64,000 nt of DNA, from IMG/VR virus record IMGVR_UViG_3300025122_000010, positions 20,103 through 84,102 of that record; one strand, 5' to 3'. The position numbers and the translations under genes were made by a program. Source of the stretch: a virus. Below the pieces are notes generated by a model. The model had not been told where the DNA came from and did no database searches. It saw nothing but the letters and a program-made list of their open reading frames with translations. The first letter of the stretch is position 1. Each line of letters opens with the position of its first letter. Below are positions 1,730-63,767 of this stretch, in pieces.

Positions 1730-3826
1730 ATGAAATTGTATGAAGGTATTACACACATTGATGATCTTGAGATCAGTAAGTTTATGGATTTGGCAAGACG
1801 TATGCAAAACAAAGATGCGTCTATTGAGCTATCTACAAAATGGGATGGGAGTGCTAATCTAGGATTTGGGGTTGATGAAGAAGGAAACTTGTATTTTGAT
1901 AGAGCTGTAAAAGGACAAGCTGAAAGAAGAAGAAGTCCAAATGACTGGCCTAAAAAGCCAATGTTTAATGCCATACGATCTGCAGTTGCTGCAATGTTGA
2001 CAAAGAAGAAAGAAATAGAATCTTTGATGCAGCCTGGTGAATGGACAGATTCTGAAATCATGTTTGAAACTATACCCAATTCAATAGAGTATGGTGACAA
2101 CATGATTATTGTTCATGATGTAAAATACAACAAATTAGTGAAAGCTCTTAGGGCTGCAAAAGCTAAGATAGATCTGTATTTCTTCAATCCTAAAACTGGC
2201 AAGATCGGAAAGCAAACACAAGAAGTGCGTTATGTATTCGGCGGTAAAGAAGTTATACCAACTAAGAAATACCAGTTGTCTATAAATGCTGATATTGATA
2301 GACTAGAAGAGTTTCTATCAGAACCAAATGATGTATTTAAAAACATGTCAAACTTTGAAGTACTAGGAACTAGATCAGTAGGAAAAGATAAAGATAGGAT
2401 TGCAAAAGAGAAAGCTAGACTAGCTAAAGAGATAAAAACACAACAGCTTTCTATAAAAGATAAGTTGATTGACCAGATACTAAATAAGATTCCTGCATCT
2501 AAAGTAGCTCCTCCTCCAGTATTTGATGATCAAGGTAACAACGTCTCAGGTAGTTGGCCTGAAGGGATAGTCATTAAAGATTTAGATTCAGGTGATCTAA
2601 CTAAAGTTGTGTCTGTATTTCCAGAGATCAATAAGTTTCTTTGGCATTACAGAGAAATGGCAATGAGAGGAGCTGGGCCTGCTGGTAAGTTTGTTCCCGG
2701 TATAATGCAAGTTTTCAAAGACGATATAGGTGATAAAGCATTTGGTGTAAAGCAATTGAAAGTTGCAGGTGTAGCTTCATATATAAGAAAGAAATATCCA
2801 GGACAGCCTGCTAATGAGAAACTACTATTTTTCTTAAGAGACAAGAAATTCAAATTCAATAGAGCTAATCAAACAAAGAGCTTGTTTCTAAAAGCTGTCA
2901 AGAAAGCATTGACTGATCTGAATAGCTTGAGAAGAGAGTTTGAAACAGTTGGTAAGAAACAAACATTGAAAGTGCAAAAGGGCACATTCCAAAGAGTTGT
3001 ACAATATAGTCCAGTTCAAATTAGAAAAACATATGAGACTTTCATTACAGTAGAAGACGAATTGAAAGCAATGCTAAAGAAAGTACAGAATGCAACTGCC
3101 AAAACACCCGAAGGGCTAGCTGTCCAATTGCTAAGAATATATTTTGGTAGAGACAATATGAAAAAGATGAATGAAGACTATGATAGTATAATTAATAGAG
3201 TTAGAAACATAATCAAAGAGAGATATTTAACTGAAGCTGCTAAACGAACTAAGATTGGTATAATACTTGGTAGGTTCCAACCTCCACAAAAAATGCATAT
3301 TGAACTTATAGAAAGAGCTTTAAAAGAAAATGATCGTGTCTATGTATTTGTAGCTGGACAGGGCACAGACAAAAGAAATCCAATACCTCATCAACTTAGA
3401 GCAAATGTTCTTGAAAAATTTGTTAATGACAAAAGAGTTCAGATCTATGCTGCTAAAAGTGGATTTCTACCAGCACTGATTGATTCACATGCTGACTTGA
3501 ATAATGTGGGTTTGATCAATGCATATTGTGGTACAGATAGAAAACCAAAATTCTTAGACATGTTCAAGTATTTTGACCATGATGATATAAAAATAAAAAT
3601 CAACGTGTTAAAGAGAGATCCTGATTCTGTCAGTTCAACAAAAGTAAGAGATGCTATTGGAAATAGTGATTATGAATTATTCAAATCATTAATGCCAGTT
3701 AAGTTAAGTAATAAAGATGCAATGTCACTATTTAAGAAATATCAAAGATTTATTAAGCCCATAAAAAATGAAGCATACATCAGAAAACTTGCAAGATCTA
3801 TATTAGAAAGGACATTTTCTAAGTGA
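1730..3826 (+). CDS. ligase-like nucleotidyltransferase fused to NMN-adenylyltransferase-like domain
   Basis: This 698-aa protein has two catalytic-type domains. The N-terminal part has the covalent nucleotidyltransferase (DNA/RNA ligase) motifs: KWDGSAN with candidate nucleophile K37, EIMFETIPNSIEY near 110 as motif III, EGIVIK near 280 as motif IV, and a following K (LTKVV). A central 220-residue region is unassigned. The C-terminus from about 508 is a nucleotidylyltransferase fold of the NadM/NMNAT kind: IGIILGRFQPPQKMH followed by VSSTKVRDAI. The first His of the usual HxGH motif is Gln here and the Gly is Met, so activity is uncertain. It could seal RNA or DNA and make NAD, or regulate one with the other. 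Start ATG has GGAG 9 nt upstream. The leader MKLYE resembles those of the genes at 58-64 kb. Confidence 0.7.
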   Translation: MKLYEGITHIDDLEISKFMDLARRMQNKDASIELSTKWDGSANLGFGVDEEGNLYFDRAVKGQAERRRSPNDWPKKPMFNAIRSAVAAMLTKKKEIESLMQPGEWTDSEIMFETIPNSIEYGDNMIIVHDVKYNKLVKALRAAKAKIDLYFFNPKTGKIGKQTQEVRYVFGGKEVIPTKKYQLSINADIDRLEEFLSEPNDVFKNMSNFEVLGTRSVGKDKDRIAKEKARLAKEIKTQQLSIKDKLIDQILNKIPASKVAPPPVFDDQGNNVSGSWPEGIVIKDLDSGDLTKVVSVFPEINKFLWHYREMAMRGAGPAGKFVPGIMQVFKDDIGDKAFGVKQLKVAGVASYIRKKYPGQPANEKLLFFLRDKKFKFNRANQTKSLFLKAVKKALTDLNSLRREFETVGKKQTLKVQKGTFQRVVQYSPVQIRKTYETFITVEDELKAMLKKVQNATAKTPEGLAVQLLRIYFGRDNMKKMNEDYDSIINRVRNIIKERYLTEAAKRTKIGIILGRFQPPQKMHIELIERALKENDRVYVFVAGQGTDKRNPIPHQLRANVLEKFVNDKRVQIYAAKSGFLPALIDSHADLNNVGLINAYCGTDRKPKFLDMFKYFDHDDIKIKINVLKRDPDSVSSTKVRDAIGNSDYELFKSLMPVKLSNKDAMSLFKKYQRFIKPIKNEAYIRKLARSILERTFSK

Positions 3827-7148: not shown

Positions 7149-7497
7149 AGTGTTAGCAGTTGATTTTGATGGAACATTAGCAACATATGGCTCAGGGCAG
7201 TGGCCTACAATTGGTAAACCAAAGAAGGAAGTCATAGATCGAGTTAAAGAGTATAAAGCTAATAATTGGCAAATAATTCTTTGGACTTGTAGAAGCGGTA
7301 AGTATTTAGAAGAAGCAGTTGATTGGTGTAAAAATCTTGGATTAGAATTTGACGCAGTTAACAAAAACACTGAAGTTATAGCTGAACGCGAAGCAACTAA
7401 TCAAGGAGTAAGTTCATCAGAGGAGTTGTCACCAAAGATCTATGCTACCTTTTATTTAGATGACAAAAACGCAACAATTGACGAGTTCATACGATGA
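7135..7497 (+). CDS. HAD-superfamily hydrolase, small phage type
   Basis: This 120-aa protein has HAD motif I DFDGT (LAVDFDGTLATYG), motif II in WQIILWTCRSG and an acidic motif IV (FYLDDKNA). It lacks a cap domain. Small phage HAD proteins of this kind are usually predicted phosphatases for nucleotides or nucleic acid ends. It overlaps both neighbours (membrane protein and Nudix), so it is co-translated with them. Confidence 0.75.
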   Translation: MGKVRVLAVDFDGTLATYGSGQWPTIGKPKKEVIDRVKEYKANNWQIILWTCRSGKYLEEAVDWCKNLGLEFDAVNKNTEVIAEREATNQGVSSSEELSPKIYATFYLDDKNATIDEFIR

Positions 7498-7925
7498 AGC
7501 TACAAGAAACAAAAAAGAAAAAGATCATAAGAGCAGGAGTCATCCCATTCTTCATAAAAGATAAAAAGCTAGAAATGTTGTTCATGAAACCTTCAGATCC
7601 AAAGTATGGTGGTGCGCAATGGCAGATAGCTAAAGGAGAGATTGATGAAGGTGAGGCTATCATCAAGGCAGCTCTTAGGGAGGGCAAAGAAGAGCTTGGC
7701 TTATTACGTAGTAACATAGATCAGTTGTTTTCTCTTGGCAGTTTTTGGAATGGCGCTTTTCATTTATTTGCCGTGACTGTTAAGAGTAAGAAGAAATTTG
7801 CTAAATTTGGTGAAGAAACCGGTGCAGTAAGATGGATGAATTGGGGTGAAATCTTTACAGAAGGGAGGAGAGAGCAAATCAAGCTAGTGTCAACAGCTTA
7901 TAAGGTAATAAAAGCAGGAGTTTAA
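7494..7925 (+). CDS. Nudix hydrolase
   Basis: This 143-aa protein contains the complete Nudix box G-x5-E-x7-RE-x2-EE-x-G (residues from GEIDEGE to REGKEELGL). The ATG overlaps the HAD stop. Nudix enzymes cleave nucleoside diphosphates linked to another group, such as dNTPs, NADH, ADP-ribose or RNA caps; the substrate cannot be read. With the NMN-adenylyltransferase-like protein nearby, NAD metabolism or nucleotide sanitation are reasonable guesses. Confidence 0.85.
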   Translation: MKLQETKKKKIIRAGVIPFFIKDKKLEMLFMKPSDPKYGGAQWQIAKGEIDEGEAIIKAALREGKEELGLLRSNIDQLFSLGSFWNGAFHLFAVTVKSKKKFAKFGEETGAVRWMNWGEIFTEGRREQIKLVSTAYKVIKAGV

Positions 7926-23984: not shown

Positions 23985-23985
23985 T

Positions 23986-24071: not shown

Positions 24072-24092
24072 AATAACAAATGAGGTTTCAAA

Positions 24093-24314: not shown

Positions 24315-24338
24315 AGACCACTTATTCAGAAGGAGAGA

Positions 24339-24491: not shown

Positions 24492-24530
24492 GTTTAATGC
24501 TAGAAGTTATTTATTATAACTAGATAGAAT

Positions 24531-24608: not shown

Positions 24609-24628
24609 AAAAAATCAAGGAGGCTCCA

Positions 24629-24781: not shown

Positions 24782-24847
24782 CTCAGTGGTTAGAGTTCCT
24801 GTCCTACAAACAGGTGGTCGTTGGTTCGAATCCAACCTCGGGCACCA
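24772..24847 (+). tRNA. tRNA-Val(TAC) with C at position 33
   Basis: Acceptor GCCCGTG/CTCGGGC (one T-T mismatch), D stem ACTC/GAGT, anticodon arm CCTGT-CCTACAA-ACAGG, T arm GTTGG-TTCGAAT-CCAAC, CCA encoded. Position 33 is C instead of the near-universal U. Confidence 0.8.
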
Positions 24848-24864
24848 AATAAATGGAGGTTTCT

Positions 24865-25128
24865 ATGAACAGTCTAAAAGGCAAACTTCAATTGGTTGCT
24901 GGAATCATTACTACTTTATGGGTGTTTGTTGCAATGTTTTGTAGTGAGCCAGGTTATCTTTATAGTTCAAAATGCGATTGTGAAGCTGCATTTACGTTTT
25001 TTGGAATTGTAGGCGGGTTTTCAATGATTTTTGCAATTATATATGGCATCAGGCAATTACTGTATGAAGGTGCAAAGAATTGCAAACTGAGAATAAGTTA
25101 TGACAATAATTCTAAAACAGAAGAATAG
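24865..25128 (+). CDS. membrane protein, 87 aa
   Basis: ATG 24865 has TGGAGG 6 nt upstream and is preferred over ATG 24853. Two hydrophobic segments (LQLVAGIITTLWVFVAMF and FFGIVGGFSMIFAIIYGI) flank a loop with CDC. Function unknown. The 52 nt downstream hold only a three-codon frame. Confidence 0.55.
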   Translation: MNSLKGKLQLVAGIITTLWVFVAMFCSEPGYLYSSKCDCEAAFTFFGIVGGFSMIFAIIYGIRQLLYEGAKNCKLRISYDNNSKTEE

Positions 25129-25180
25129 GAGGGTGCTAACATGACGTAACTATCTAACAACTAAAAATAGGAGACTAGTT

Positions 25181-25708
25181 ATGTCTGAAGATGAAGTACT
25201 TTTCGATCCAGAGTATAATCCTGAGTGGTATGAAAGAATGATTCTTTGGTTCTATCATAACATTTGGGAAAAAAGAGATGTTCGTAGAAGGTTAAGATGG
25301 TTTTGGCAAAGAAGAACCAGAGGATTCGATGATCTTGAACTTTGGAATCTTCATTATAGTTTCACAGATTTCATTCTTCCTAGATTGAAAGCATTCAGAG
25401 AACTCGGACTTATGGGTTGTCCTGTTCTTGAAGGTTATGAGTTTAATGGAAATCATGATGGAATGCACGATGAGTGGAAAGAGATTCTTGACAAGATGGT
25501 TAATGCTTTCTACTATATGAAAATAGATATGGAAGATATGCATTACCCTCCATCAAAAATGATGAAAAAAGAAGACGGAACAATTTACTTTAAGCACTAT
25601 CCAGGTTATAACTATGATGAATACACTACAGAAATGAAAAGAAGATGGGATGTTATTGAAGAAGGCTTAAAACTATTCGGTAAGTATTATCAAGGCATAT
25701 GGGATTGA
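25181..25708 (+). CDS. conserved phage hypothetical protein, 175 aa
   Basis: AGGAGAC precedes the ATG. The segment RRTRGFDDLELWNLHYSFTD, FILPRLKAFRE, and DEWKEILDKMVNAFYY is a pattern I recall from a widespread phage family of unknown function (the helix after W-DL and the EW--ILDKMI-AF block). It is rich in Trp/Tyr/Arg. Not assigned. Confidence 0.6.
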   Translation: MSEDEVLFDPEYNPEWYERMILWFYHNIWEKRDVRRRLRWFWQRRTRGFDDLELWNLHYSFTDFILPRLKAFRELGLMGCPVLEGYEFNGNHDGMHDEWKEILDKMVNAFYYMKIDMEDMHYPPSKMMKKEDGTIYFKHYPGYNYDEYTTEMKRRWDVIEEGLKLFGKYYQGIWD

Positions 25709-25718
25709 GGAGGTTTCT

Positions 25719-26054
25719 ATGATAATGTGGCATGTTGGTCCAGATGCTATAATGGACCATGCAAGAATAGTTAAGATTCTTTTATGTGATGCTATTGTCA
25801 GAAAGGGATATGTAACACAAGAACAAGGTAATGAAATTTGTGATAACATAATTATCACGTATGAACGTAAACCTCTTTTGAGCACTGCCTGGAATTGGGT
25901 GAGTGGTGATAAAGAGAAGTATTCGTTCATAGTTTCAGAACTTATTAATTGTTCTGGAAGAGAAAAAGATGTAGATCATATTTTAGCAAAGAAATCAGCA
26001 CCAAAGTTAGAAGAAGCAAAAGAAGAAAAGGAAGAAGAAACTAAAGACGAATGA
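25719..26054 (+). CDS. hypothetical protein, 111 aa
   Basis: A strong GAGGAGG precedes the ATG. The globular part has a possible helical core (IMDHARIVKILLCDAIV) and the tail is Glu/Lys-rich (KLEEAKEEKEEETKDE), like the tail of the protein at 18216. Function unknown. Confidence 0.55.
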   Translation: MIMWHVGPDAIMDHARIVKILLCDAIVRKGYVTQEQGNEICDNIIITYERKPLLSTAWNWVSGDKEKYSFIVSELINCSGREKDVDHILAKKSAPKLEEAKEEKEEETKDE

Positions 26055-26059
26055 ATTTG

Positions 26060-26133
26060 CGCGGGGAGGATCGGTTATCCCATCTGGTCTCATAAGCCAG
26101 ACTTCGTGAGTTCAACTCTCACCCCCGCTTCCA
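26060..26133 (+). tRNA. tRNA-Met(CAT), copy 2
   Basis: Acceptor CGCGGGG/CCCCGCT with a C-T mismatch at pair 1-72, D stem GGAT/ATCC, anticodon arm CTGGT-CTCATAA-GCCAG, T arm GTGAG-TTCAACT-CTCAC, CCA encoded. The 1-72 mismatch recalls initiators, but the three G-C pairs of initiator stems are absent. Confidence 0.75.
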
Positions 26134-26309
26134 TTTATAACTGAACAGAGTGACTGAATAATCCCTTCTTGGTGGGGATAAAGTACAGTTGACTAGTATG
26201 GTAGCTAGAGGCTGGTTCAGGGGATACCTTAGAGACAGATTAGCCAAGCTCCTGTTAAGAGAGTCTATTCTAGATATATATCTACTCTCTTCTCTGTTCT
26301 TACAAAAAT
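26134..26309 (+). other. tRNA spacer with hairpin, no clear gene
   Basis: No convincing gene here. A hairpin spans 26257-26291: AAGAGAGT/ACTCTCTT outside and TAGAT/ATCTA inside, followed by CTCTGTTCTT. It may be a processing site or weak terminator between two Met tRNAs. Confidence 0.4.
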
Positions 26310-26381
26310 ACCGGTAGCCCAGGTTTGGGGAGTGATTCTCATAAGATCATTCTTTGAGTTCAATTCTCTCTACCGGTACCA
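26310..26381 (+). tRNA. tRNA-Met(CAT), copy 3
   Basis: Acceptor ACCGGTA/TACCGGT, short D arm CCC/GGG, anticodon arm TGATT-CTCATAA-GATCA, T loop TTCAATT, CCA encoded. It could be Met or lysidine-type Ile. Confidence 0.75.
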
Positions 26382-26397
26382 ACTATGAGGTTTTGAT

Positions 26398-26750
26398 ATG
26401 ACTTCTGAAGATCATAAGATTCCAACTCCAAAAGAGTTTTTAGCAAAGCAAGATGACAAAAAAAGAAAAAAAGAGAAAAGCTAATTGACACTTGGAGTAA
26501 GTTATTCAAAACAGAATTGGAAGCAAAGTCAAAGTGTAAAGTAATTCCTCCAGCTGTAGTAAAGTTGCATGTTGTGAATCGTCTTGCAGAACATGAATTA
26601 ACTATACTCATCGATCATTTTTCAAGATATGGTTGGCATATGTATTATGTTCCAGAATCAGATACATCTTGGTCAATGACAGCAAAGAGCTATCATACAT
26701 TTATTAAGCATTATTATATGTTTAAGCCTGAAAATGATTGGAAAGCATAG
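26398..26750 (+). CDS. hypothetical protein, probably joined by a -1 frameshift on a run of seven A
   Basis: The first frame (ATG 26398, MTSEDHKIPTPKEFLAKQDD plus basic residues) ends at TAA 26482. The second frame, open from 26457, reads REKLIDTWSKLFKTELEAKS and continues to TAG 26748 (VVKLHVVNRLAEHELTIL, YYMFKPENDWKA). No good start serves the second frame. Between them, 26466-26472 is A-AAA-AAA in the first frame, a classic slippery heptamer; slipping back one base joins both into 117 aa. A homopolymer sequencing error would look the same. Function unknown. Confidence 0.5.
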
Positions 26751-26751
26751 T

Positions 26752-26827
26752 TGCCCTGTGGTCTAATTGGCACGACGCCTGGCTCTGGACCAGGAAATTC
26801 TAGGTTCGAATCCTAGCAGGGCAGCCA
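26752..26827 (+). tRNA. tRNA-Gln(CTG), last of the island
   Basis: Acceptor TGCCCTG/CAGGGCA, anticodon arm CCTGG-CTCTGGA-CCAGG, T arm CTAGG-TTCGAAT-CCTAG, discriminator G, CCA encoded. Confidence 0.9.
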
Positions 26828-52443: not shown

Positions 52444-52921
52444 TATTAAAATATTTGAAGATATGACAGTTGACCAAGTGTTTAGTGAAATTTTTAGTAG
52501 AAGCACTGAAGAACGCGAACGTGCATTAAAAGTTTTCGATGAGATAACATCCCAACTCGAGGGAAAAGAAGACGTGTTCATGATTGGTGATAAAGCAAAT
52601 CCATATTTGGAGATAGCACAAAAATCTACTGACAACCTAACTAAAATGCTGGCAACAGTGCAGAGATTCCTTGATGTTGGAGAAGATCCTGAATCATCAA
52701 ATGACAAAGGAGAGCTCCTTAAGATTCTTAGTGAAAATAATTCACTTCCAGAAGAAATGAAAGAAAGAGATAAAGATTGTGAAGGGGAAGCTGGCGCTGA
52801 TGATGCATCTCTAACTGGGTATGATTTTTCAATTTTGGGGATAGACACAGAAAAGGAGAAGCCGAAAGAGCTAAAATTTAAAATAGGAATGCCCGATGAA
52901 AATTTAGAAAGGTTTAAATGA
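52424..52921 (+). CDS. hypothetical acidic protein, 165 aa
   Basis: Start GTG 52424 has GGAG upstream. The helical core (LSDIKIFEDMTVDQVFSEIF, AQKSTDNLTKMLATVQRFLD) and acidic linker with a C-terminal FKIGMPDENLERFK motif look like an accessory factor with a partner-binding tail. It overlaps the RuvC-like gene by ATGA. Function unknown. Confidence 0.5.
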   Translation: MSKKLSDIKIFEDMTVDQVFSEIFSRSTEERERALKVFDEITSQLEGKEDVFMIGDKANPYLEIAQKSTDNLTKMLATVQRFLDVGEDPESSNDKGELLKILSENNSLPEEMKERDKDCEGEAGADDASLTGYDFSILGIDTEKEKPKELKFKIGMPDENLERFK

Positions 52922-53430
52922 CACTTGGATTAGATATAAACACAAATTCAACTGGATATGCTGTACTAGACAAAGATGAGAAATTAATAAAATATGGTTG
53001 TATAGATACTTCAAAAGAAAAAGATTATTTCGATAAAGCTGCGAAGTTCGCTCTCCAGACTGCTGATGTGTTTGGAGAGCTTTCTTTTGAAAGAATCGGA
53101 ATAGAAGATATAATAGGCAAATTTGCTAGTGGTCGTTCCAGTGTAAAGATAATAATTGCATTAGCACAATTCAATGCACTGGCTAGTTTTCAGTGCTATG
53201 TGTTATGCAAAACAAAGCCTGAACATATAAATGTGAATAGAGCAAGGAGCCTTGCATTAGGTTTTAGTATTCCAAGGGGTGTAAATAAGAAAGAGTTTAT
53301 ATTAAAACTAGTTAGTGAATGGTATCCAGAAATTGAATGGCCGATGATGAAGAGAAAAAAAGCGCTTGCAAAAGAAGCATACGATATTTCAGATGCTATA
53401 ATAGTAGCTAAGGCAGTTTTGAGACTATGA
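52918..53430 (+). CDS. RuvC-like Holliday junction resolvase
   Basis: This 170-aa RNase H-fold protein has LGLDINTNSTGYAVLD (first Asp, D6), GIEDIIGKFASGRSSVKIII (Glu) and EAYDISDAIIVAKA (final Asp pair), the pattern of RuvC/phage resolvases. It would cut four-way junctions made by UvsX or at packaging. It is coupled to both neighbours by overlaps. Confidence 0.75.
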   Translation: MTLGLDINTNSTGYAVLDKDEKLIKYGCIDTSKEKDYFDKAAKFALQTADVFGELSFERIGIEDIIGKFASGRSSVKIIIALAQFNALASFQCYVLCKTKPEHINVNRARSLALGFSIPRGVNKKEFILKLVSEWYPEIEWPMMKRKKALAKEAYDISDAIIVAKAVLRL

Positions 53431-54437
53431 CAAAAGAGCAAGAACTTCGTGTTTTAATAAGCATATTGGGTGACTTCAAATCATATGACAATAACGACAA
53501 TTATGTTTTCCGTTGTCCGAATTGCAATCATAGGACTGCCCATCTTGCTGTCCAATTAGTAACACAGAAGTATCATTGCTTTATATGCGAATTCAGTGGA
53601 ATAGGACATGAGAGAAGCTTAAGAAGACTTGGCTTTTATAGACAAAGCAAGTTGTTTTCTGAAAAATCAGCAATATATAAGAGCTTCTCTAAAGAATATA
53701 TTGAAAGCTTGATAAGAGGTGACACACTCAATTTAAGCTATACTCAAACTGAAGACTTATTTATCCCAGCACATTATGAATATTTGTATAGAAATAGACA
53801 TAAATTTCTTTTCAATGTGGGATATAACTATCTTTTAAGTCGAGGTGTTGATGATGATGACTTGATAAAATACAATGTGTATTATTCAATTGAAGAAAGA
53901 AGAATTTTGATACCTTCTTTTGATTGCGACTTCAAACTAAACTATTACATTACTAGATCTGTAGATGATGGCGTATATAGCAAATATCTGAATCCAAAGT
54001 CAAACAAGACAAACTTGATATTCAATGAGTTCTTGATAGATTGGAGTTCAGAATTGATTCTTGTTGAAGGTGTGTTTGATGCAATATTATCAAGGAAAAA
54101 CTCTGTTCCGTTGTTGGGTTCAAGCATGAACAAAAGCACAAAGCTGTTTAGAGAAATAAAGAAGAACAACACACCAGTTGTCTTGGCTTTAGATCCAGAC
54201 GCACTTGATAAGCAGTGTAAAATAGCTGAGTTGTTGTTTAAAAACAATATATCGGTTTGCTCTTTAGATATGAGTAAAGAGAAAGGCGATGTTGCAGAAA
54301 TAGGTTGTGATAGACTTGACAGTTTGATAAGTTCTTCAAGTAGTTTTGATTTTACTCAATTGGTTCAATCTCACATGATAACTGGAGGCAGAATTGAGAA
54401 TAGCACACACAGCAGACTGGCACATACGCTTACTTAA
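53427..54437 (+). CDS. DNA primase, DnaG-like
   Basis: This 336-aa protein has an N-terminal zinc-binding domain (FRCPNCNHR and YHCFICEFSG) and a TOPRIM core (ELILVEGVFDAIL with Glu, then VVLALDPDALDK with DxD). It lays RNA primers for lagging-strand synthesis together with the helicase at 32096. Its C-terminal 44 nt overlap the SbcDC fusion gene. Confidence 0.85.
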   Translation: MTKEQELRVLISILGDFKSYDNNDNYVFRCPNCNHRTAHLAVQLVTQKYHCFICEFSGIGHERSLRRLGFYRQSKLFSEKSAIYKSFSKEYIESLIRGDTLNLSYTQTEDLFIPAHYEYLYRNRHKFLFNVGYNYLLSRGVDDDDLIKYNVYYSIEERRILIPSFDCDFKLNYYITRSVDDGVYSKYLNPKSNKTNLIFNEFLIDWSSELILVEGVFDAILSRKNSVPLLGSSMNKSTKLFREIKKNNTPVVLALDPDALDKQCKIAELLFKNNISVCSLDMSKEKGDVAEIGCDRLDSLISSSSSFDFTQLVQSHMITGGRIENSTHSRLAHTLT

Positions 54438-57400
54438 GAGACACAAAGAGTATAGAAAAGTATTTAAGGGCTTTAAAGACTCATTGATAAAAAATGAAAT
54501 AGATTTAATCGTAGTTGCTGGAGATGTGTTTCATAATAAAACAAGCTTATCTCCAGAAGCTATGAATTTAGCAACAGATATTTTTTCAGAACTATCAGAA
54601 GACTTTGACATCCATATTATCCCAGGGAACCATGATTGTATTGTAAACTTGCCAGGTAGATTAGATGCTATATCACCTGTGTTAAGACACACTCCTAATA
54701 AATCTAACAACAACCTATTCTTATACAAGAATAGCGGATTGTTCTATGATGAAAAGCATAAGATTTGTTTTGGTGTGTTCTGTATAAATGATGAAGCAAA
54801 TTTTCCAGTTGAAATAAAAGAAAGAATTGAAGACTATACTTATATTGCTTTATTCCACGGAGCATTGGATAAAGCAGTAACTGACGTTCACTATGTCTTA
54901 AACACTAGATATACTTGTAACATGTTTAAAGAGTATGATCTAGCATTGCTTGGTGACATACATAAGCATCAAGTGCTACTCAATGATGTTTCTAACTTCC
55001 CAAGAGTGGTATATCCTGGAGCACTCATACAACAAAACTTTGGTGAATCACTAGAAAAAGGATATGTAATTTGGGATTTAGACAAGAAGACTTGTGATTT
55101 TGAAAGAATGGAGAATGATCACGGTTACTATACAATGAAGATTTCTAAAGATGATGATGTAGATAGTGTAATAAGAAACATTTCTGATATGCCCAAATTT
55201 CCTAGTATAAGAGTTTTTATAGAGAGTTCTAGATACAACCAAGTTACATTGAGAAATATTGCTTCTACTATAAAAGAAATATACAATCCAACTACTCTTT
55301 CTATTGAAGTTGATAGTGAAACAATTATAAATGACTTGGAATTTGGTGACTTGAAAGTTGAAGATGTTTCTCAACTACATGTTCAACAGAAACTATTAAG
55401 AGACTGGTTTGCAGCATATGATGTGACAAATGTAGAATTAGAAAAGATTATGAATATGCATAGTAATTTTTTCTATTCTAATGTTGAAGATGAAGAGCAA
55501 ATACATAGAGGCACTAAATGGTCTGTTGATAACATGAAGTTCTCTAATACATTCTCTTATGGTAAAGACAACTCAATAGATTTCAATAACCTTAAGGGAC
55601 TAGTAGGAATATTCTCACCAAACAAAACTGGTAAATCAGCATTGCTAACAACCCTATTGAATGGTTTGTTTAATCTATCAGATAGAGTGTCCAGGAGAAA
55701 TCTCGCTGAATTGATAAACTTCAAAGAGAACTCAGCAAGCATAAACATCGAATTGTCAGTTGATAACAAGCGGTTTCGTATTGATAGAGAAATAGAGAAA
55801 TATGACGTTGAAAGAAATAAGGGACAATCTAAAGTTCAACTAGTAGATATAACTGATGATGAAGTTCTACTGTCTGGTGAATCAACTAAAAATGAAACAG
55901 AAAGAATATTGAGAAATATGATTGGTAGTTTTAATGATCATAGTATGATAACATTCGGAATGCAAGACAAGCTTACTAGCTTCATTGATTTGAATCAGTC
56001 ATTAAGAAAAGAAACTCTTTCAAGGTTTCTTGGTATTGATGTTATAGACAACTTGTTCTCTACAATAAAGACTGAATGTGATAGCTTGTCAAAGCTTATA
56101 CAACAATATAAGAACCATGACTTTACATCAATACTTTCTGCTTACACTGAACAGAAAAGTAAAGTAGAAAAAGAGATTGAAAGCTCAGAAGCATTGAAAA
56201 CTGAAATATCTAAAGAAGTCAACAATGTAAGAAACAACATAAGTTCAATGCAAGAGACATTATTTAATATTGATGGAGTCGAATATAGTGAAGAAGAGAT
56301 TCTTAAGAGTGTAGGTTCCTTTAAAGAAGCAATTAAAGAAAACAAAGAAAAAATATCTGATCTTGTTTCAAGAGAGAAAATCTATAAAGAAAGCAACAGT
56401 GGATTGAAACTACAATTAGAGAGCTTTGATAAGAGTGAAATCGATGAATTCATTTCAAAGCTCAATAATAATAGAGAGATGCTTCAAGCAGTAAGGAACT
56501 CCATTATATTGCTTAAGAAGGATATAAAGAACGCTAGTAGAATGGCAGGAAATCTAGAGAAGCATGACTGGTTTGAGAGCAATGAACTTTGTAAGAAATG
56601 CTCCTTCCTTTCAGATGCTTTTGGTGCTAAGAAATCTTTGGAAAACTACACTCTTCAAATTGAAGAAAAGCAAATAGAAGAAGAAAGAGCCAAGGAGAAA
56701 ACTGATAGATATGAGAATGCTGAAGAAAGACTAAGAGATTACCAAGCAATAGTAACTGAAATAGAGAGCAACAGAAGGAAATTGGAGCTTAATACCATAG
56801 AAATCGAATCACATCGGAACAAGTTGAATGGCAACAAGATAGAGTTATCATTATTTGAAGAATTGCAAAAACGTTATAAGAGAAACAAAGAGCAAATTGA
56901 ACATAACAGTGTGACTAAAGAGCTAATAGAGAAGCAACGTTCTGGTCTATCTGTATTCGAAGGTCAACTATCTAAAGTTGACAAGATGATAAATACAAAA
57001 AATTCAGAGTTAGGAACGATACTACAAAAGATTAATGACCTAGATGATTCAATAAAAGAGCTAGTTAAAATTGAAGAGCAGTTTAGACTTGCATCTTTAC
57101 TCAAAGACGCTCTTTCTAAAGACGGTATACCATTACAGATTATAGAGCAAGTCATACCAAGAATTAATGCTGAGTTAGTTAAGATACTATCAAATGTAGT
57201 AGATTTTGGTATAATATTTGAAATTGATAAAGAGTCTAAAGATATTGATATTTATATAGATGACGGAGATTGTGTTAGATCTATAAGCTTGGGTTCTGGA
57301 ATGGAAAGAACTATAAGCTCAATTGCTTTAAGAGCCGCTATAGCTAATATATCATTAATACCTAGTTGTAACTTGTTTATTATAGATGAGGGCTTTGGAA

Positions 57401-57573
57401 CTCTAGACTCTGATAATTTGAATAACATGAACATGATGCTTGGGTATCTAAAATCTACATTTGATACTGTTATAGTTATCTCGCATATTCAAGAAATGCA
57501 AGACATCTGTGACTATATAATATCAATTGAAAGAGATGAGAATGGGTATTCAAAGTTGAAGATTGGAGCATAG
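54394..57573 (+). CDS. fused SbcD-SbcC (Mre11-Rad50) nuclease-ATPase
   Basis: A single 1059-aa protein combines both subunits. The N-terminal 230 residues are a calcineurin-type nuclease: HTADWHI, VAGDVFHNK, IIPGNHDC, LLGDIHKH. From about 400 the ABC ATPase begins: Walker A FSPNKTGKSALL, a long coiled coil with a zinc-hook-like CKKC near 732, signature SLGSGMERT near 965, Walker B LFIIDEGFGTL and a switch His in VISHIQ. In T4 these are separate genes 47 and 46. Start TTG with GGAGG 7 nt upstream. It resects DNA ends for recombination. Confidence 0.9.
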   Translation: MRIAHTADWHIRLLKRHKEYRKVFKGFKDSLIKNEIDLIVVAGDVFHNKTSLSPEAMNLATDIFSELSEDFDIHIIPGNHDCIVNLPGRLDAISPVLRHTPNKSNNNLFLYKNSGLFYDEKHKICFGVFCINDEANFPVEIKERIEDYTYIALFHGALDKAVTDVHYVLNTRYTCNMFKEYDLALLGDIHKHQVLLNDVSNFPRVVYPGALIQQNFGESLEKGYVIWDLDKKTCDFERMENDHGYYTMKISKDDDVDSVIRNISDMPKFPSIRVFIESSRYNQVTLRNIASTIKEIYNPTTLSIEVDSETIINDLEFGDLKVEDVSQLHVQQKLLRDWFAAYDVTNVELEKIMNMHSNFFYSNVEDEEQIHRGTKWSVDNMKFSNTFSYGKDNSIDFNNLKGLVGIFSPNKTGKSALLTTLLNGLFNLSDRVSRRNLAELINFKENSASINIELSVDNKRFRIDREIEKYDVERNKGQSKVQLVDITDDEVLLSGESTKNETERILRNMIGSFNDHSMITFGMQDKLTSFIDLNQSLRKETLSRFLGIDVIDNLFSTIKTECDSLSKLIQQYKNHDFTSILSAYTEQKSKVEKEIESSEALKTEISKEVNNVRNNISSMQETLFNIDGVEYSEEEILKSVGSFKEAIKENKEKISDLVSREKIYKESNSGLKLQLESFDKSEIDEFISKLNNNREMLQAVRNSIILLKKDIKNASRMAGNLEKHDWFESNELCKKCSFLSDAFGAKKSLENYTLQIEEKQIEEERAKEKTDRYENAEERLRDYQAIVTEIESNRRKLELNTIEIESHRNKLNGNKIELSLFEELQKRYKRNKEQIEHNSVTKELIEKQRSGLSVFEGQLSKVDKMINTKNSELGTILQKINDLDDSIKELVKIEEQFRLASLLKDALSKDGIPLQIIEQVIPRINAELVKILSNVVDFGIIFEIDKESKDIDIYIDDGDCVRSISLGSGMERTISSIALRAAIANISLIPSCNLFIIDEGFGTLDSDNLNNMNMMLGYLKSTFDTVIVISHIQEMQDICDYIISIERDENGYSKLKIGA

Positions 57574-58238: not shown

Positions 58239-58568
58239 ATGAGATTAAGAGATTTGTTTGAATCTGAAGAAGATACTTGCGGTAGTGCAACTCTTCGAGC
58301 TTTTGGAATAACTACACCTGGAGCAACAAAATGGGCAAATGTTCAAACATTATTAAAAAAAGCAGGGCATAAATTAAGCCCAGAAGTTCCTGCTTGGGGA
58401 ACAAATAAGCCTACACTCAGTAGCTTTATTAAGAACCACAAAAATGGCGATTTTGTGATTTTCACATCAGATCATATAATGGCATTAAGAGATGGGAAAT
58501 TGACAGATACAGACGAAACTCGTGGCGGAAGACGTAAAGTAATAGAAGCTTACAAAGTGTCTAAATAA
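58239..58568 (+). CDS. papain-like fold protein, 109 aa
   Basis: This small protein has the order C (DTCGSATLRAFG), then KPTLSSFIKNHKNGDFVIF, HIMALRDGKLTD and GGRRKVIEAYKV. It matches a family of small papain-like proteins with a Cys-His-Asp arrangement that I know from phages and bacteria. Activity is not shown. It begins MRLRDLFESEED, one of the recurring N-terminal leaders in this region. Confidence 0.5.
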   Translation: MRLRDLFESEEDTCGSATLRAFGITTPGATKWANVQTLLKKAGHKLSPEVPAWGTNKPTLSSFIKNHKNGDFVIFTSDHIMALRDGKLTDTDETRGGRRKVIEAYKVSK

Positions 58569-58578
58569 GAGAATTTGA

Positions 58579-60015
58579 ATGAAACTTAGGAAAGTGCTCA
58601 TAAAGATGAATGAAGGAAAAACAGAGAAGGCTGCAGAGCAGTTTCTGTCTAAGATGGTAAGAAGTTCTCCATTCAAAGGGAAAGTGTATATTGCTGGAGG
58701 ATATGTCAGAGATGAATTTATGGGATTGGATCCTAAAGACATTGACATCGTAGTTGAACTGTCACAAGGAGGGATCAAATTCGCAGAGTATGTAACGAAA
58801 CAGATGGGCAACTATAAGAAGGGGTCCAATCCCGTTATATATCCAAAGTTTGGTACAGCCAAGTTCAATCTCAAAGGAAAGCATAACGGACTAGATCTAT
58901 CTGGAATAGAGGTAGAAGCTGTAATGTCCAGGTCAGAACAGTATACTAGAGGGTCAAGGAAACCAGATGTAAAGCCAGGAACACTAAAGCAAGATGTTGA
59001 AAGGAGAGATTTCACAGTAAACAGTTTGCTAAAAGATCTAACTTCGGGTGAAGTTGTAGATCTAACAGGACAAGGGAAAGCTGATATAAAGAAGGGTGTT
59101 ATTAGAACTCCTTTAGATCCGAATATAATCTTTTCAGAAGACCCATTAAGAATGCTAAGAGCTATTCGTTTCACAGTAAAATATGGTTGGGATTTACCTC
59201 TATTTATGATTAGAGCAATAAAGAAGAACTCCAAAAAGATTAATTCTATTTCATCAGAACGAATAAGAGATGAATTCGATAAGATGCTAGGAACCAAGAA
59301 ACCCAAGCAAGCTGTAAGATTATTGAAGATCACAGGTCTCATGCAACATATCATGCCTGAGCTACAATCTACAATAGGAGTTACACAAAACAAGTACCAC
59401 ACAGTAGATGTATGGAATCACCTTCTTGACGTATTAGAGAAGGTACCGACTGATGTCACCAAGAGATTGGCAGCACTATTCCATGACATAGGGAAACCTA
59501 CTGTTAAGAAGATTATAGACAATGAAGTGCATTTCTATCAGCATGAAGATATAAGTGCAGAGATTGCTGAGAAGATGATGAGAAGGTTGAAGTATCCTAA
59601 CGAAATCATTAGCAAAGTAACTTCTCTTGTTAAATCTCATATGAGACTAAAGAGTGCTGGTGATAAGGGAGAGAAGATTTCTGATAAGGCTCTAAGAAAA
59701 TTCAAGAGAAATGTAGGCGATCATCTCGAAGATGTATTAGATCTAATGGATGCTGATAACAAATCACATAGTGGTCATTCTTCTATACAAGGACAGATTC
59801 CAGGAATCAGAACTAGATTAAAGGGACTAAAGGACGCTCCTAAAACTGGCGGTAGCCAATACAGCATTCCGATAACGGGTGATGATATTAGAAATTTAGG
59901 AGTCAATCCTGGTCCCATCTATAAGAAAATACTATCAGCTGTGCAAGATGCTGCAGATGACGATCCGAGTCTAACTAGAAACCAAGCATTAGCAATTGTC
60001 AAGGGGATGATATAA
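58579..60015 (+). CDS. cca: CCA-adding enzyme / tRNA nucleotidyltransferase
   Basis: This 478-aa protein has the class II nucleotidyltransferase head VYIAGGYVRDEFMGLDPKDI (GG...DxD), the RRDFTVNSLLKDL motif, LRMLRAIRFTVKYG, a neck domain (RIRDEFDKML), then a C-terminal HD domain (LAALFHDIGKP). It adds or repairs CCA at tRNA 3' ends. Most island tRNAs encode CCA, so repair is the more likely role, apart from tRNA-Ser(TGA), which ends in CCC. It shares the M-K-L leader. Phage copies are rare. Confidence 0.9.
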   Translation: MKLRKVLIKMNEGKTEKAAEQFLSKMVRSSPFKGKVYIAGGYVRDEFMGLDPKDIDIVVELSQGGIKFAEYVTKQMGNYKKGSNPVIYPKFGTAKFNLKGKHNGLDLSGIEVEAVMSRSEQYTRGSRKPDVKPGTLKQDVERRDFTVNSLLKDLTSGEVVDLTGQGKADIKKGVIRTPLDPNIIFSEDPLRMLRAIRFTVKYGWDLPLFMIRAIKKNSKKINSISSERIRDEFDKMLGTKKPKQAVRLLKITGLMQHIMPELQSTIGVTQNKYHTVDVWNHLLDVLEKVPTDVTKRLAALFHDIGKPTVKKIIDNEVHFYQHEDISAEIAEKMMRRLKYPNEIISKVTSLVKSHMRLKSAGDKGEKISDKALRKFKRNVGDHLEDVLDLMDADNKSHSGHSSIQGQIPGIRTRLKGLKDAPKTGGSQYSIPITGDDIRNLGVNPGPIYKKILSAVQDAADDDPSLTRNQALAIVKGMI

Positions 60016-60320
60016 TGAAGTTAAGCGAAGCAACTTTTCAACCAGACGTAAATTCAATAGCTGGATTTGTAAAGAAGTTACACCCTGATGATGTTGACAA
60101 AGATGAGGATAGTATATCTTTCACTCATTATTATAAAGGTGGTAACAGAAAACAGGGAGTTAGTTCTGTAATTCACTTCACTCCAAAAGGTTATTACTAT
60201 GAAGGTGGAACTTTCGGAACGAAAGACAAGCTTAATAAGAAAATAAAGGCTACAACTAACAGTAATAGCTTGTTCAAAGAAATTCAAGACTGGCTCTGGG
60301 AAATGAACGTGTTAAACTAA
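60015..60320 (+). CDS. hypothetical protein, 101 aa
   Basis: AAGGGG precedes the ATG, which overlaps the CCA enzyme stop. It starts MKLSEATFQPD, the local leader type with L-x-E. The rest has a beta-rich central part (SISFTHYYKGGNRKQGVSSV). Function unknown; a virion or injected protein is possible. Confidence 0.5.
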   Translation: MKLSEATFQPDVNSIAGFVKKLHPDDVDKDEDSISFTHYYKGGNRKQGVSSVIHFTPKGYYYEGGTFGTKDKLNKKIKATTNSNSLFKEIQDWLWEMNVLN

Positions 60321-60330
60321 AGGATATAAT

Positions 60331-60822
60331 ATGATTCTAATTCTAGAACGTTTTTCTGATAATGGTGACAGCACTCTTGGTTTGTTGTACGTAAGAGCCC
60401 CGGCCTATAAAGCTTATAAGAAGCAGTTTCTATGTTTTACATTAGAAGATGAGAAGAGAACTAAGAAAATCTATGGTGAAACACGCATACCTGAAGGGAA
60501 CTATAATTTAAAACTAAGAACAGAAGGTGGTTTCCATGCTAGATATACACAAAGATTTGGGACAGATTTCCACAAAGGAATGCTCCAGATAATGAATGTT
60601 CCAAACTTTGAGGATGTTTTGATCCATACAGGTAATGATGATGGAGATACGGCTGGTTGTGTGCTAGTAGGAGATATAGCTGTACAGAATATTACAACTG
60701 AAGGATCGATCAGATCATCAACTGATGCTTACAAAAGAATATATCCAGATATTGCTGAACGACTATTGAATGGTGGATCTGTGCTTTTAATAATTAAAGA
60801 TGCCTCATTCCATGATTTCTAA
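60331..60822 (+). CDS. DUF5675-like protein, 163 aa
   Basis: The pattern TRIPEGNYNLKLRTEGGFHA, RYTQRFGTDFHKGMLQI, and VLIHTGNDDGDTAGCVLVG fits the DUF5675 family seen in phages and bacteria, with conserved His and Cys near the C-terminus. Its function is not established; the His/Asp/Cys layout recalls hydrolase or transpeptidase folds. AAAGGA precedes the ATG. It ends before the terminator at 60854. Confidence 0.7.
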   Translation: MILILERFSDNGDSTLGLLYVRAPAYKAYKKQFLCFTLEDEKRTKKIYGETRIPEGNYNLKLRTEGGFHARYTQRFGTDFHKGMLQIMNVPNFEDVLIHTGNDDGDTAGCVLVGDIAVQNITTEGSIRSSTDAYKRIYPDIAERLLNGGSVLLIIKDASFHDF

Positions 60823-60853
60823 CACATGAACTAAAAAATGAAGTATTGTACTG

Positions 60854-60888
60854 AAAAAGCTAGATATGATTATCTAGCTTTTTTTTTA
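60854..60888 (+). terminator. intrinsic terminator
   Basis: A 12-bp stem (AAAAAGCTAGAT/ATCTAGCTTTTT) with a 6-nt loop followed by eight T. It closes the holin-to-DUF5675 unit. Confidence 0.85.
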
Positions 60889-60921
60889 TTGCTATAAAGT
60901 GTAAAAACGACATCGTATTAA

Positions 60922-60933
60922 ATATTTATATAG
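60922..60933 (+). promoter_or_regulatory. ATATTTATATAG motif, third copy
   Basis: An exact copy of the 12-mer at 1693 and 28674, here after a terminator and 60 nt upstream of the gene at 60994, where a promoter must lie. Confidence 0.35.
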
Positions 60934-60993
60934 AATACTATATCTAGTAGAGTCTACACACAATTGTGAAAATAGAATGTACGGAGAAAATGA

Positions 60994-61428
60994 ATGGCAA
61001 TAGAAAGCACAGATCGTGCCAATATTTTAGCACCAGCAACAAGTAGTGCTACTGCAACTGAAGCATTAATGCTTGATTGTCAAGACTGGACTCTTACAGT
61101 ACCCGGACAATTAGGAATTGATGTTACAGCTTCTGGGTTGAAGGTTCAAGTAAATAATGCTAATGCAATGGATGCTGCTAAAGCAGATAGCTATGTTGCT
61201 CCAATTATGTATGGAATCAACTCTGTTAATAGAAATCTTAATCAGGTAGCTGCTTCAGCATCTGACTTTGAGGGAAACTGGGTCAATGTTGGCGATATGT
61301 CTGCTTCTGCTTATGTTGGTAATGGTCACTTTGAATGGGTAAGGATAGTTAGAGATGATCCATTTACAGGGTCTATGTCAGCATTCAAAGCTTATCTCAG
61401 ACGTTATCACGATGCCCCGATGGTTTAA
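60994..61428 (+). CDS. possible virion-associated protein, 144 aa
   Basis: GGAG precedes the ATG. The sequence is Ala/Ser/Asn-rich with no charged clusters (PATSSATATEALMLDC, YGINSVNRNLNQVAASASDF) and an aromatic C-terminus (FKAYLRRYHDAPMV). Such composition is common in phage structural proteins. It forms its own unit between a terminator and a hairpin. Not assigned. Confidence 0.5.
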   Translation: MAIESTDRANILAPATSSATATEALMLDCQDWTLTVPGQLGIDVTASGLKVQVNNANAMDAAKADSYVAPIMYGINSVNRNLNQVAASASDFEGNWVNVGDMSASAYVGNGHFEWVRIVRDDPFTGSMSAFKAYLRRYHDAPMV

Positions 61429-61436
61429 TTTAAATC

Positions 61437-61477
61437 GGGAGTGGAGTTTATTATTATATATAGTATGCTCTGCTCCC
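61437..61477 (+). terminator. hairpin after the 60994 gene, weak terminator candidate
   Basis: GGGAG/CTCCC and GAG/CTC stack around an internal TG/TG loop and an AT-rich 21-nt apical loop. No T tract follows, so termination is uncertain. Confidence 0.4.
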
Positions 61478-61504
61478 ATTACAATTCTAGTTAGGAGTAC
61501 TTAA

Positions 61505-61903
61505 ATGAAGCTTAAAAAGAAAGACTTAGTAAACTTGATTGTTGAAGTGATTGAAGAAGCAAAAGATTTACAATCTAAAATACAAAATACAGGTATCCCA
61601 TCTTCAGATGCAAAGTATTTACAAAAATTAATGGAGAAACTGGGAGCACATAGTGTGTATTCTAAGAAAGATTTCATAAAATGGAGGAATAAATATCGTG
61701 GTGGAGAAATTGCAGTTTTCTATCATAGAGATAAAATAACAAACATACCAGAACAACCAAAAAAATACCAAAGGCTGAGAGGAAAACCAGGATTTACTGT
61801 TGAATATCTTGCAAAAAACCGTAATGTTGTAAGTATAGGAGCAAAGTTATCAGATGCCATTAATGATATTTCTAAATTTATAAAAAACCACATTGAAAGT
61901 TGA
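61505..61903 (+). CDS. hypothetical basic protein, 132 aa
   Basis: AGGAG precedes the ATG. It starts MKLKKKDLVNLIVEVIEEAK, a longer version of the local leader with I-x-E triplets. The rest is basic and may bind nucleic acid (PEQPKKYQRLRGKPGFTVEY). Function unknown. Confidence 0.5.
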   Translation: MKLKKKDLVNLIVEVIEEAKDLQSKIQNTGIPSSDAKYLQKLMEKLGAHSVYSKKDFIKWRNKYRGGEIAVFYHRDKITNIPEQPKKYQRLRGKPGFTVEYLAKNRNVVSIGAKLSDAINDISKFIKNHIES

Positions 61904-61919
61904 TTGCAAGAGCAAATGA

Positions 61920-62108
61920 ATGAAGCTAAATGATTCATTAAATGAGCTGAATACAGCAAACATAGTTAAACATTTAAATCCGAAACAACGTCTCGCTGCT
62001 GTAATGGAAATAGCAGACAGCTTAATGCAAGATCCGAAATATGCAAAATACAAAGAGAAGTTAATAACAATGCGTCGCCTGGCTTCTGCAATGGCAATCG
62101 GCGTTTAA
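61920..62108 (+). CDS. small protein, 62 aa
   Basis: It starts MKLNDSLNELN (local leader with L-N-E) and continues as a helical basic segment (HLNPKQRLAAVMEIADSLMQ). The ribosome site is weak (AGAG). Function unknown. Confidence 0.45.
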   Translation: MKLNDSLNELNTANIVKHLNPKQRLAAVMEIADSLMQDPKYAKYKEKLITMRRLASAMAIGV

Positions 62109-62122
62109 CAACAGGAGGATGT

Positions 62123-62398
62123 ATGGCAAAGGAAGTTGTGGGAGTCCATCCAGGAACTGGACTTCCTTTAGTTCGTTCAAAACATAAGTTTGTGAAACCG
62201 AAGTCTGTTAATAAAAAAGAAGGAAGCAAGTTACCTCTTAACCCATTTTTCTGTCCTTGCAAAGATCCAGAGACAGGAGAGCAATGTGGTAAAATTATGG
62301 GACCTTGGGACACATACTGCTATAATTTGTATGGCATGTGTGAAGATTGTTTTAGGAAGCATAATAATCATGTTGAATTAAAGAAGCCCGAAGTTTAA
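62123..62398 (+). CDS. Cys-rich zinc-binding protein, 91 aa
   Basis: AGGAGG precedes the ATG. The C-terminal half has PFFCPCKDPETGEQCGK and TYCYNLYGMCEDCF, enough cysteines for two zinc sites. This one lacks the local leader. Function unknown. Confidence 0.55.
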   Translation: MAKEVVGVHPGTGLPLVRSKHKFVKPKSVNKKEGSKLPLNPFFCPCKDPETGEQCGKIMGPWDTYCYNLYGMCEDCFRKHNNHVELKKPEV

Positions 62399-62458
62399 AA
62401 TTCCCATAAACATAATTATAAAATAATGCGACAATTGAGTTACCAACGGAGACAATTA

Positions 62459-62890
62459 ATGCCAGATGTATACTTAAAATCACCTTTCAGACCAAATCCT
62501 AAGAATCCAGGAGCGTTTGCAGGGGCAGATGATATTGATGTAACTACAGTATCAGATACTAGAGTTAGAAGTGCTATTGAAGTTGTAGCAAATTATGTGA
62601 GCCTCATCCCTGAGATAAATGTAACATTTGAAGCTGATGTAATGCAGTTGAAGACACAAAGATATGGAGCTGTAAACGATGTCGGACTTGAAGCAGAATT
62701 GCAAAACGAACTAGATACAGTAGCAAAGAATATAGAAACAAATTTGAAGGATGAAGAGTTCAAGAAAGTGAAAGTCGAACCAATATGTGTTGATGTGACT
62801 CCAATGGGATGGGGCTCAGGAATTAATGGACTAGGTAGAACTGTGCTTTATATAGCTATTGGAACTTATAACTTAAGAGCAGAGATATAA
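62459..62890 (+). CDS. conserved phage-type hypothetical protein, 143 aa
   Basis: ATG 62459 has CGGAG upstream. A proline-rich N-terminus (MPDVYLKSPFRPNPKNPGAF) is followed by a helix-rich middle and a beta-rich end (PICVDVTPMGWGSGINGLGR). It could be a tail or virion protein, but no family is clear. Confidence 0.5.
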   Translation: MPDVYLKSPFRPNPKNPGAFAGADDIDVTTVSDTRVRSAIEVVANYVSLIPEINVTFEADVMQLKTQRYGAVNDVGLEAELQNELDTVAKNIETNLKDEEFKKVKVEPICVDVTPMGWGSGINGLGRTVLYIAIGTYNLRAEI

Positions 62891-62907
62891 ATCACAGGAG
62901 ACAAGGA

Positions 62908-63168
62908 ATGAAGTTGATATCTGCACTTAATGAAGAAAAGAGATTTGCTGCAGTTAAGAAGGGTGACAAATCCGTTTCTGTTGATGACGATACAGGAGTT
63001 GTAGTTGCCAAAGGGCCAGCTCTGGTATTAGCAAAGAAATACGACAAACATATGGCTGCAAACTTAGATGATTTCGGTTTTGATAAAGATTCTGAAGCAA
63101 TCGCTGTAAAAGACGACAATGATGGCAAAATTTACGTCTGGGGTTATGGCTCTGGACTTGGCGCTTGA
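62908..63168 (+). CDS. hypothetical protein, 86 aa
   Basis: AGGAGAC precedes the ATG. It starts MKLISALNEEKRF (local leader with L-N-E). The rest is a small alpha/beta domain (GDKSVSVDDDTGVVVAKGPA). Function unknown. Confidence 0.5.
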   Translation: MKLISALNEEKRFAAVKKGDKSVSVDDDTGVVVAKGPALVLAKKYDKHMAANLDDFGFDKDSEAIAVKDDNDGKIYVWGYGSGLGA

Positions 63169-63182
63169 GTGGAGAATTAAAA

Positions 63183-63551
63183 ATGAAGTTGCATGAAGTA
63201 CTACAAGAAGAAGAGAATAACAATACAGCAAAGATCAAAAAAGCCATTTCATTATTGGCAAAAGGTTACGCAAACAAGAAGTATTATAGAACCAAAGTTA
63301 AGTCAGATAATTATGATACTAGTTTCATTGTGACAATGAGTCTAGATGGTAATAAAAGTACTATATCATTCAACTTCAACAACGATAATGGTTCAGTCAC
63401 TCTAGATGACACAGGAGGAGCTGCAATACAAGATTGGCTTGGTGTTTCAAGTGGTGTAGTTGATGTTGATAGATTCAATAGAGTTGCACCTAAAGAGTTG
63501 AAATTCTGGAGTCAAAAAGCTCCTGAAGAGATGGAATTAGACGAACTATAA
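63183..63551 (+). CDS. hypothetical protein, 122 aa
   Basis: ATG 63183 has GGAG upstream; a TTG at 63165 is in frame but less likely. It starts MKLHEVLQEEENN (local leader with L-Q-E), then basic and beta-rich segments (DTSFIVTMSLDGNKSTISFN). Function unknown. Confidence 0.5.
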   Translation: MKLHEVLQEEENNNTAKIKKAISLLAKGYANKKYYRTKVKSDNYDTSFIVTMSLDGNKSTISFNFNNDNGSVTLDDTGGAAIQDWLGVSSGVVDVDRFNRVAPKELKFWSQKAPEEMELDEL

Positions 63552-63566
63552 AAGTTGAGATATAAC

Positions 63567-63767
63567 ATGCTATTAAGAGAGGCTATAAAAATTCCTGTTA
63601 AAGTGGGTGATACAATTCTTACAGGGCGCTTTAAGAACAAGAAGACTAAAGTCAATTCTATTGGTGAAGATGAACATGGCATGCCTACTATAAATGGCAG
63701 GAAAGTTGTTACATTCAGAACACTAAAACAAGAGAGCAACGATGAACAGTTTGGTGTTTACTTGTAA
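63567..63767 (+). CDS. hypothetical protein, 66 aa, with in-frame continuation after the stop
   Basis: ATG 63567 starts MLLREAIKIPVKVGDTILTG and ends at TAA 63765. Beyond the stop the same frame stays open to 63953 without a start codon near its beginning, so the original protein may have been longer. Leader type with L-R-E. Confidence 0.5.
   Translation: MLLREAIKIPVKVGDTILTGRFKNKKTKVNSIGEDEHGMPTINGRKVVTFRTLKQESNDEQFGVYL

Follow-up and report, generated by a model that had tools for sequence, protein, structure and literature searches.

A shared N-terminal leader on late proteins of an IMG/VR virus resembles the capsid-targeting peptides of phage T4

RESULTS

Unrelated late proteins begin with a common leader

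At the right end of the IMG/VR virus record IMGVR_UViG_3300025122_000010 (84,102 bp) lies a run of late genes, many of whose proteins begin with a similar short leader, MKL followed by a hydrophobic-x-Glu triplet. The window, the whole stretch of 64,000 nucleotides analysed here, comprises bases 20103-84102 of the record, which ends at the window's right edge. Gene coordinates of this phage are window positions, and the genes given here as start..end lie on the + strand. The original prediction had named nine proteins with such a start, and all nine are present, each with an ATG and mostly with a good ribosome-binding site. The leader is MRLRDLFE in a 109-amino acid protein (58239..58568), MKLNDSLNE in a 62-amino acid protein (61920..62108), MKLISALNE in an 86-amino acid protein (62908..63168) and MKLHEVLQE in a 122-amino acid protein (63183..63551). 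Shorter forms are found on a 101-amino acid protein for which no family was identified (60015..60320, MKLSE-A) and a 66-amino acid protein (63567..63767, MLLRE-A), and a long helical form, MKLKKKDLVNLIVEVIEEA, opens a 132-amino acid protein (61505..61903). The list is completed by a CCA-adding enzyme (58579..60015), whose domains start at residue 36 behind the N-terminal extension MKLRKVLIKMNE-GKTEKAAEQFL, and by a distant 698-amino acid fusion of a DUF6267-like KxDG domain with an NMNAT/cytidylyltransferase (1730..3826), where a weak leader, MKLYE-G, precedes the domain. The proteins do share a start, with some variation: 58239 has MRL, 63567 lacks the Lys and 61505 carries the longer helical leader. 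An L/I-x-E triplet near the start, said to occur in all but 58579, is indeed seen in eight of the nine, as the presence of a site and not as cleavage; 58579 has MNE at residues 10-12 in its place. A possible short leader that the earlier list lacked opens a Nudix hydrolase (7494..7925, MKLQETKKKK). When the small leader proteins of the window were compared with known families, the only match was a weak one for 58239.

Of the 13 late genes (57.7-64.0 kb), 7 start with M[KR]L, compared with 3 of the 119 other genes of the 84-kb record (Fisher p=1.5e-6), and 5/13 versus 2/119 combine this start with an LxE-type triplet (p=8e-5). These values are somewhat flattering because the patterns were picked after the leaders had been seen. 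Beyond the leader the late proteins have no homology to one another. Codon choice within it differs synonymously (AAA/AAG; TTA, CTT, CTA, TTG), indicating a likeness at the level of protein and not a copied segment of DNA. A recent duplication of 5' gene ends, kept as a translation signal, would fit adjacent genes that have good ribosome-binding sites in common. It is scarcely credible given this synonymous variation, the conservation of amino acids at the spaced positions 3, 5, 6, 7 and 9, and the lack of visible nucleotide-level conservation beyond codons.

The leader and a T4-type head module in related viruses

Searches of IMG/VR with CCA and DnaE protein patterns returned no close relatives, and a megablast against phages found none. 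LR756501 was ruled out as a near relative, since only its CCA domain is close (53% identity to 58579) and the remainder is distant; G003 and G004 were also set aside, being distant genomes in which DnaE, RecA and RuvC homologues are present but leaders are nearly lacking. Searching for MKLxxxLNE behind a ribosome-binding site retrieved, among others, the loci L302, L375 and L393, all of which contain the block of genes found in the window at 60994, 62123 and 62426. As these three were retrieved by the leader pattern they are biased in its favour; a further 80 loci were retrieved through the terminase of L393, giving a set of 83 loci, some of which overlap L302, L375 or L393.

In L302, L375 and L393 adjoining unrelated genes start with MKLSKVLNEN, MKLQDVLNEK, MKLADLFNEG, MRLKGLLNEA, MKLTDIIKEE, MKLSELLVEK and the like. 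Across the 83 loci, M[KR]L opens the proteins of 175 genes, which group into 34 families on the basis of their mature parts. Leu is invariant at position 3, Glu occupies position 5 in 47% and position 9 in 32%, V/I/A/L position 6 in 97% and a hydrophobic residue position 7 in 65%, which gives the consensus MKL-x-E-[VIA]-L-x-E. A hydrophobic-x-E site lies within residues 3-13 in 88% of the leader families. Control stretches taken from the same proteins have such a site in 9% and 6%, and other families in 24%. Proteins often start with MKL and the triplet LxE is frequent, so ordinary N-termini could look alike by chance, and single look-alikes exist: the nucleotidyltransferase of G003 and G004 starts with MKLRELLQEM in genomes that have almost no other leaders. 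This start is probably an ordinary helix, so pattern matches alone are no proof. Chance is nevertheless a very improbable source of the leader as a whole, given the enrichment in the record and the 88% versus 9% in relatives.

A gp21-like protease, which the original prediction had suggested seeking elsewhere in the genome, was found in relatives: S77 (gp21-type) proteases score above the Pfam cut-off in 9 of the 15 relatives' contigs tested (1/3 and 8/12), and none was found in the 84-kb fragment. The relatives' contigs also encode Portal_T4 (E 9e-78) and a T4-type terminase. In L487, RuvC, primase and SbcC are ordered as in the window (52918-57573) and are followed by terminase, portal and S77, suggesting that the same head module may lie past the end of this phage's record.

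The leader follows the register of the T4 peptide

The T4 capsid-targeting peptide has the sequence MKTYQEFIAE. In a T4-like IMG/VR genome (L176), the starts MKTYQEFINES and MKSFKEFINEA occur together with a strong S77 protease (345 bits). In T4 IPIII the first 10 residues suffice for targeting; residues 4 and 7 play a part in targeting, residues 8 and 10 in processing (PMC9026906). The leader MKL-x-E-V-L-x-E has this register minus one residue, so that T4 positions 4, 7, 8 and 10 become 3, 6, 7 and 9. A 9-residue form with aromatics also exists, as in MKFKEFLKE (G007) and MRFRQFIIEA (cyanophage S-SZBM1). The short leaders of the window (MKLSEA, MLLREA, MKLYEG) match the relatives' short forms MKLSEANSK, MKLTEAIGS and MRLKEAIDN, and the long leader of 61505 is of the same type as MKIRKSELKELVQEVLDEA in relatives.

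Leaders are carried by many protein families in large phages

A scan combining a ribosome-binding site with the leader pattern gave 79 loci versus about 3 by our own estimate and had no matched control scan, so we rely on tests of neighbouring genes instead. In five further large phage genomes, a run of 12 consecutive genes contained at most 1, 1, 1, 1 and 7 leader plus LxE starts, the last number being that of G007 (IMGVR_UViG_3300009709_000002). G007 has an S77 protease and a tandem paralogue family in which MKFKEFLKE and MKLKELLTE alternate at the same place. We also noted about 25 clustered genes of ~200 amino acids in G007 (280-303 kb and 335-348 kb), probably paralogues, nearly all of which start with MKLKELLTE, MKFKEFLKE or similar. 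Of the 975 open reading frames (ORFs) of LR756501 (735 kb), 45 have the strict aromatic motif within their first 25 residues and 4 have it in residues 26-50. S77 matches in this genome fall under the Pfam cut-off (E ~1e-5); one lies in an 807-amino acid ORF between portal-like and capsid-like ORFs, neighbours that were named by eye.

The first two scans and LR756501 gave 173 proteins with leaders of the 10- or 9-residue type, whose mature parts form 95 clusters. Among the leader-bearing proteins of the various loci are NMNAT/cytidylyltransferase, DUF6267, Nudix, RimK-like ATP-grasp, HD hydrolase and ART-PolyVal proteins, a zeta-like P-loop kinase, a pterin-4a-carbinolamine dehydratase and a weak match to rifampin-ADP-ribosyltransferase. 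The leader might target proteins to the prohead with the small ones being parts of the core or scaffold, cut up or retained in the head, and not injected cargo. Most leader proteins are 60-140 amino acids long, of unassigned family and encoded next to head genes in relatives, and T4 core proteins are cleaved by the same protease (PMC9026906). We regard this alternative as unlikely, since leaders are also found on clear enzymes (NMNAT, Nudix, zeta-like kinase, pterin dehydratase, ADP-ribosyltransferase, HD hydrolase, ATP-grasp) and the leader families differ much among relatives, unlike a scaffold.

Leader-bearing enzymes are detected in cyanophage virions

Further support for capsid targeting is provided by published cyanophage virion proteomes. 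The NMNATs of S-CREM2, S-SCSM1 and S-SZBM1, all detected in virions, start with MKNFSSFLTEA, MKSFLQFLKEA and MRFRQFIIEA, respectively. In S-CREM2 (OR473000; PMC10665884 Table 3) the motif stands exactly at residues 4, 7, 8 and 10 in gp6 (SAM hydrolase), gp13, gp14 (kinase), gp136, gp154 (cytidylyltransferase) and gp175. Five of these six are virion-detected, the exception being gp175 (55 amino acids), an association that is significant in a small sample (p=0.003; p=2e-4 among non-structural proteins). DUF6267-type proteins without a leader (S-CREM2 gp87, S-SZBM1_141) are absent from the virion lists. Many leaderless proteins are also detected, and the leader is thus at most a sufficient sign. 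Residues 17-26 of gp12 (OR473000 7704-10313), a Cas9-like protein of S-CREM2 detected in virions, read LRFASFMAEA and resemble a leader; translation might begin further in, or the leader might be internal.

The leader might instead be another address or interaction helix, for a replication compartment, a membrane or a chaperone, in which L-x-E is incidental; after all, its assignment to capsid targeting rests on sequence. Such a role is improbable in view of the T4 register, the S77 genes in the same clusters and the leader-bearing NMNATs in virions.

The CCA enzyme, the NMNAT fusion and neighbouring genes

The PolyA_pol head, RNA-binding and HD domains are all found in 58579, with the catalytic head from residue 36. 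The CCA enzyme of G007 begins at the domain itself, which identifies the N-terminus of 58579 as an extension. It ends in MNE; the CCA domain of LR756501 is preceded by NHNMLNE-A inside a 1179-amino acid protein. Packaging of 58579 in the virion is plausible. The 34 tRNA genes at 11.2-26.8 kb (window 11228-26827), with small ORFs between them, indicate that the enzyme also has an ordinary role. In the 1730 fusion, a CTP_transf_like, NMNAT-like domain is found in the C-terminal half. The N-terminal half has no Pfam DUF6267 match, and its likeness to that family is suggested by alignment and by a G007 protein that matches it at 26% and contains the motifs HIEDL and KxDG. Packaging of the fusion is weakly supported, MKLYE-G being all that precedes the domain.

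The 1179-amino acid ORF of LR756501.1 (154863-158402; L003 17856-21395) has a deaminase-like N-terminal part, the CCA domain at its C-terminus and repeated N-E-N/DPYGEE linkers, and looks like a fusion of several leader proteins. DPYGEE, mostly as DPYGEExW, occurs 103 times in 88/975 ORFs of this genome (L004-L020; e.g. 11314-11850, 132555-133257, 474332-475854). It lies within the last 16 residues in 37 ORFs, as a C-terminal tail, and within the first 35 in 20, often directly after the leader. No mention of the motif was found in the phage literature searched.

The C-terminal half of 58239 resembles phrog_3754 and a 'peptidase' of Pseudomonas phages; DTCG directly after the leader and GDFVIFTSDHIMAL further on recall papain-like peptidases. 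Leaderless genes lie between the leader genes: a DUF5675 protein (60331..60822), whose gene is also in L302, and proteins of 144 (60994..61428), 91 (62123..62398) and 154 (62426..62890, start possibly 62459) amino acids in the block common to relatives.

DISCUSSION

The likeness to T4 targeting peptides put forward in the original prediction holds up in the register, the unrelated cargo, the S77 protease and T4-type head of leader-bearing relatives, and the leader-bearing NMNATs detected in virions. That prediction went on to propose that the proteins, the CCA enzyme and a ligase/NMNAT fusion among them, may be packaged and injected. Overall, the shared leader M-K-L-x-[E/D]-[V/I/A]-L-x-E is probably a capsid-targeting propeptide of the T4 kind. 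During head assembly the leader would attach unrelated proteins to the core inside the prohead. A gp21-type S77 serine protease would then cut behind the hydrophobic-x-E site, which puts the cut after residue 5, 8 or 9 or, in the longer helical form, at the leader's end. The mature protein would thereby be released within the head and could be ejected together with the DNA. For this phage we infer the S77 protease, cleavage, packaging and injection.

Several observations speak against this interpretation, in addition to the post hoc patterns and the small S-CREM2 sample mentioned above. Where T4 has the targeting residue F7, three window leaders carry the non-aromatic residues S, A or V; 58579 has no strict L/I-x-E, and the leader of 1730 spans at most 5 residues (MKLYE-G) versus at least 10 before the domain in homologues. 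No homologue of the window's late leader proteins was detected in the relatives, and those late genes that the window has in common with them lack leaders. The 84-kb record, a fragment that ends before the head genes, yielded no gene for a protease, scaffold or capsid, and the core of the capsid-targeting model therefore rests on relatives and not on this phage. Finally, the authors of the cyanophage proteomes consider that enzymes in virions may be carry-over.

If the leader does target the capsid, whether a phage protein travels in the virion can be predicted from its first 10 residues, and hundreds of 'hypothetical' phage proteins become testable candidates for injected effectors. It would give a reason for the recurrence of NMNAT in cyanophage virions, supply tags for loading proteins into phages beyond T4 and mean that a phage may bring ready-made enzymes into the next cell. 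More tentatively, and with rather less confidence than in the leader itself, large phages with T4-type heads could load tens of enzymes and effectors into the virion by means of an N-terminal tag that is cheap and evolvable, giving a delivered proteome that starts infection alongside the early genes. Its cargo may include NAD and tRNA enzymes, ADP-ribosyltransferases, kinases, Nudix proteins and others; in the 735-kb megaphage the CCA enzyme is even part of a larger protein of several domains, whose internal N-E sites might be cleaved by the head protease. We found no papers tying such leaders to virion enzymes outside T4's kin in a search that had most subscription papers and bioRxiv preprints outside it, a negative that is no proof of novelty.

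The leader is of a known kind, that of the T4 capsid-targeting sequence, and what is new is the consensus and the very large cargo set. As in T4 IPI, IPII, IPIII and Alt, which are cut by gp21, an N-terminus of about 10 residues with spaced hydrophobics and a hydrophobic-x-E site stands on unrelated cargo, and an S77 protease lies within the head gene cluster of the window's relatives. In contrast to T4, the leader here, MKLxE[VIA]LxE, is one residue shorter, with Leu and Val/Ala replacing aromatics, and while T4 has few cargo families, among them the head-packaged ADP-ribosyltransferase Alt (PMC9026906), here there are tens, including metabolic and RNA enzymes. The virion NMNATs of the T4-like cyanophages S-CREM2, S-SCSM1 and S-SZBM1 are related to the C-terminal half of 1730 and likewise carry a leader on an enzyme, although the start of 1730 is much shorter and the source passages available link virion presence to no leader. 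The phiKZ-like giant phage SPN3US has ejection proteins with propeptides mostly >100 residues long and A-x-E sites (PMC5694885). It resembles the leader system in its many injected proteins and in maturation by a prohead protease after Glu, and differs from it in the length of its propeptides and in their A-x-E sites.

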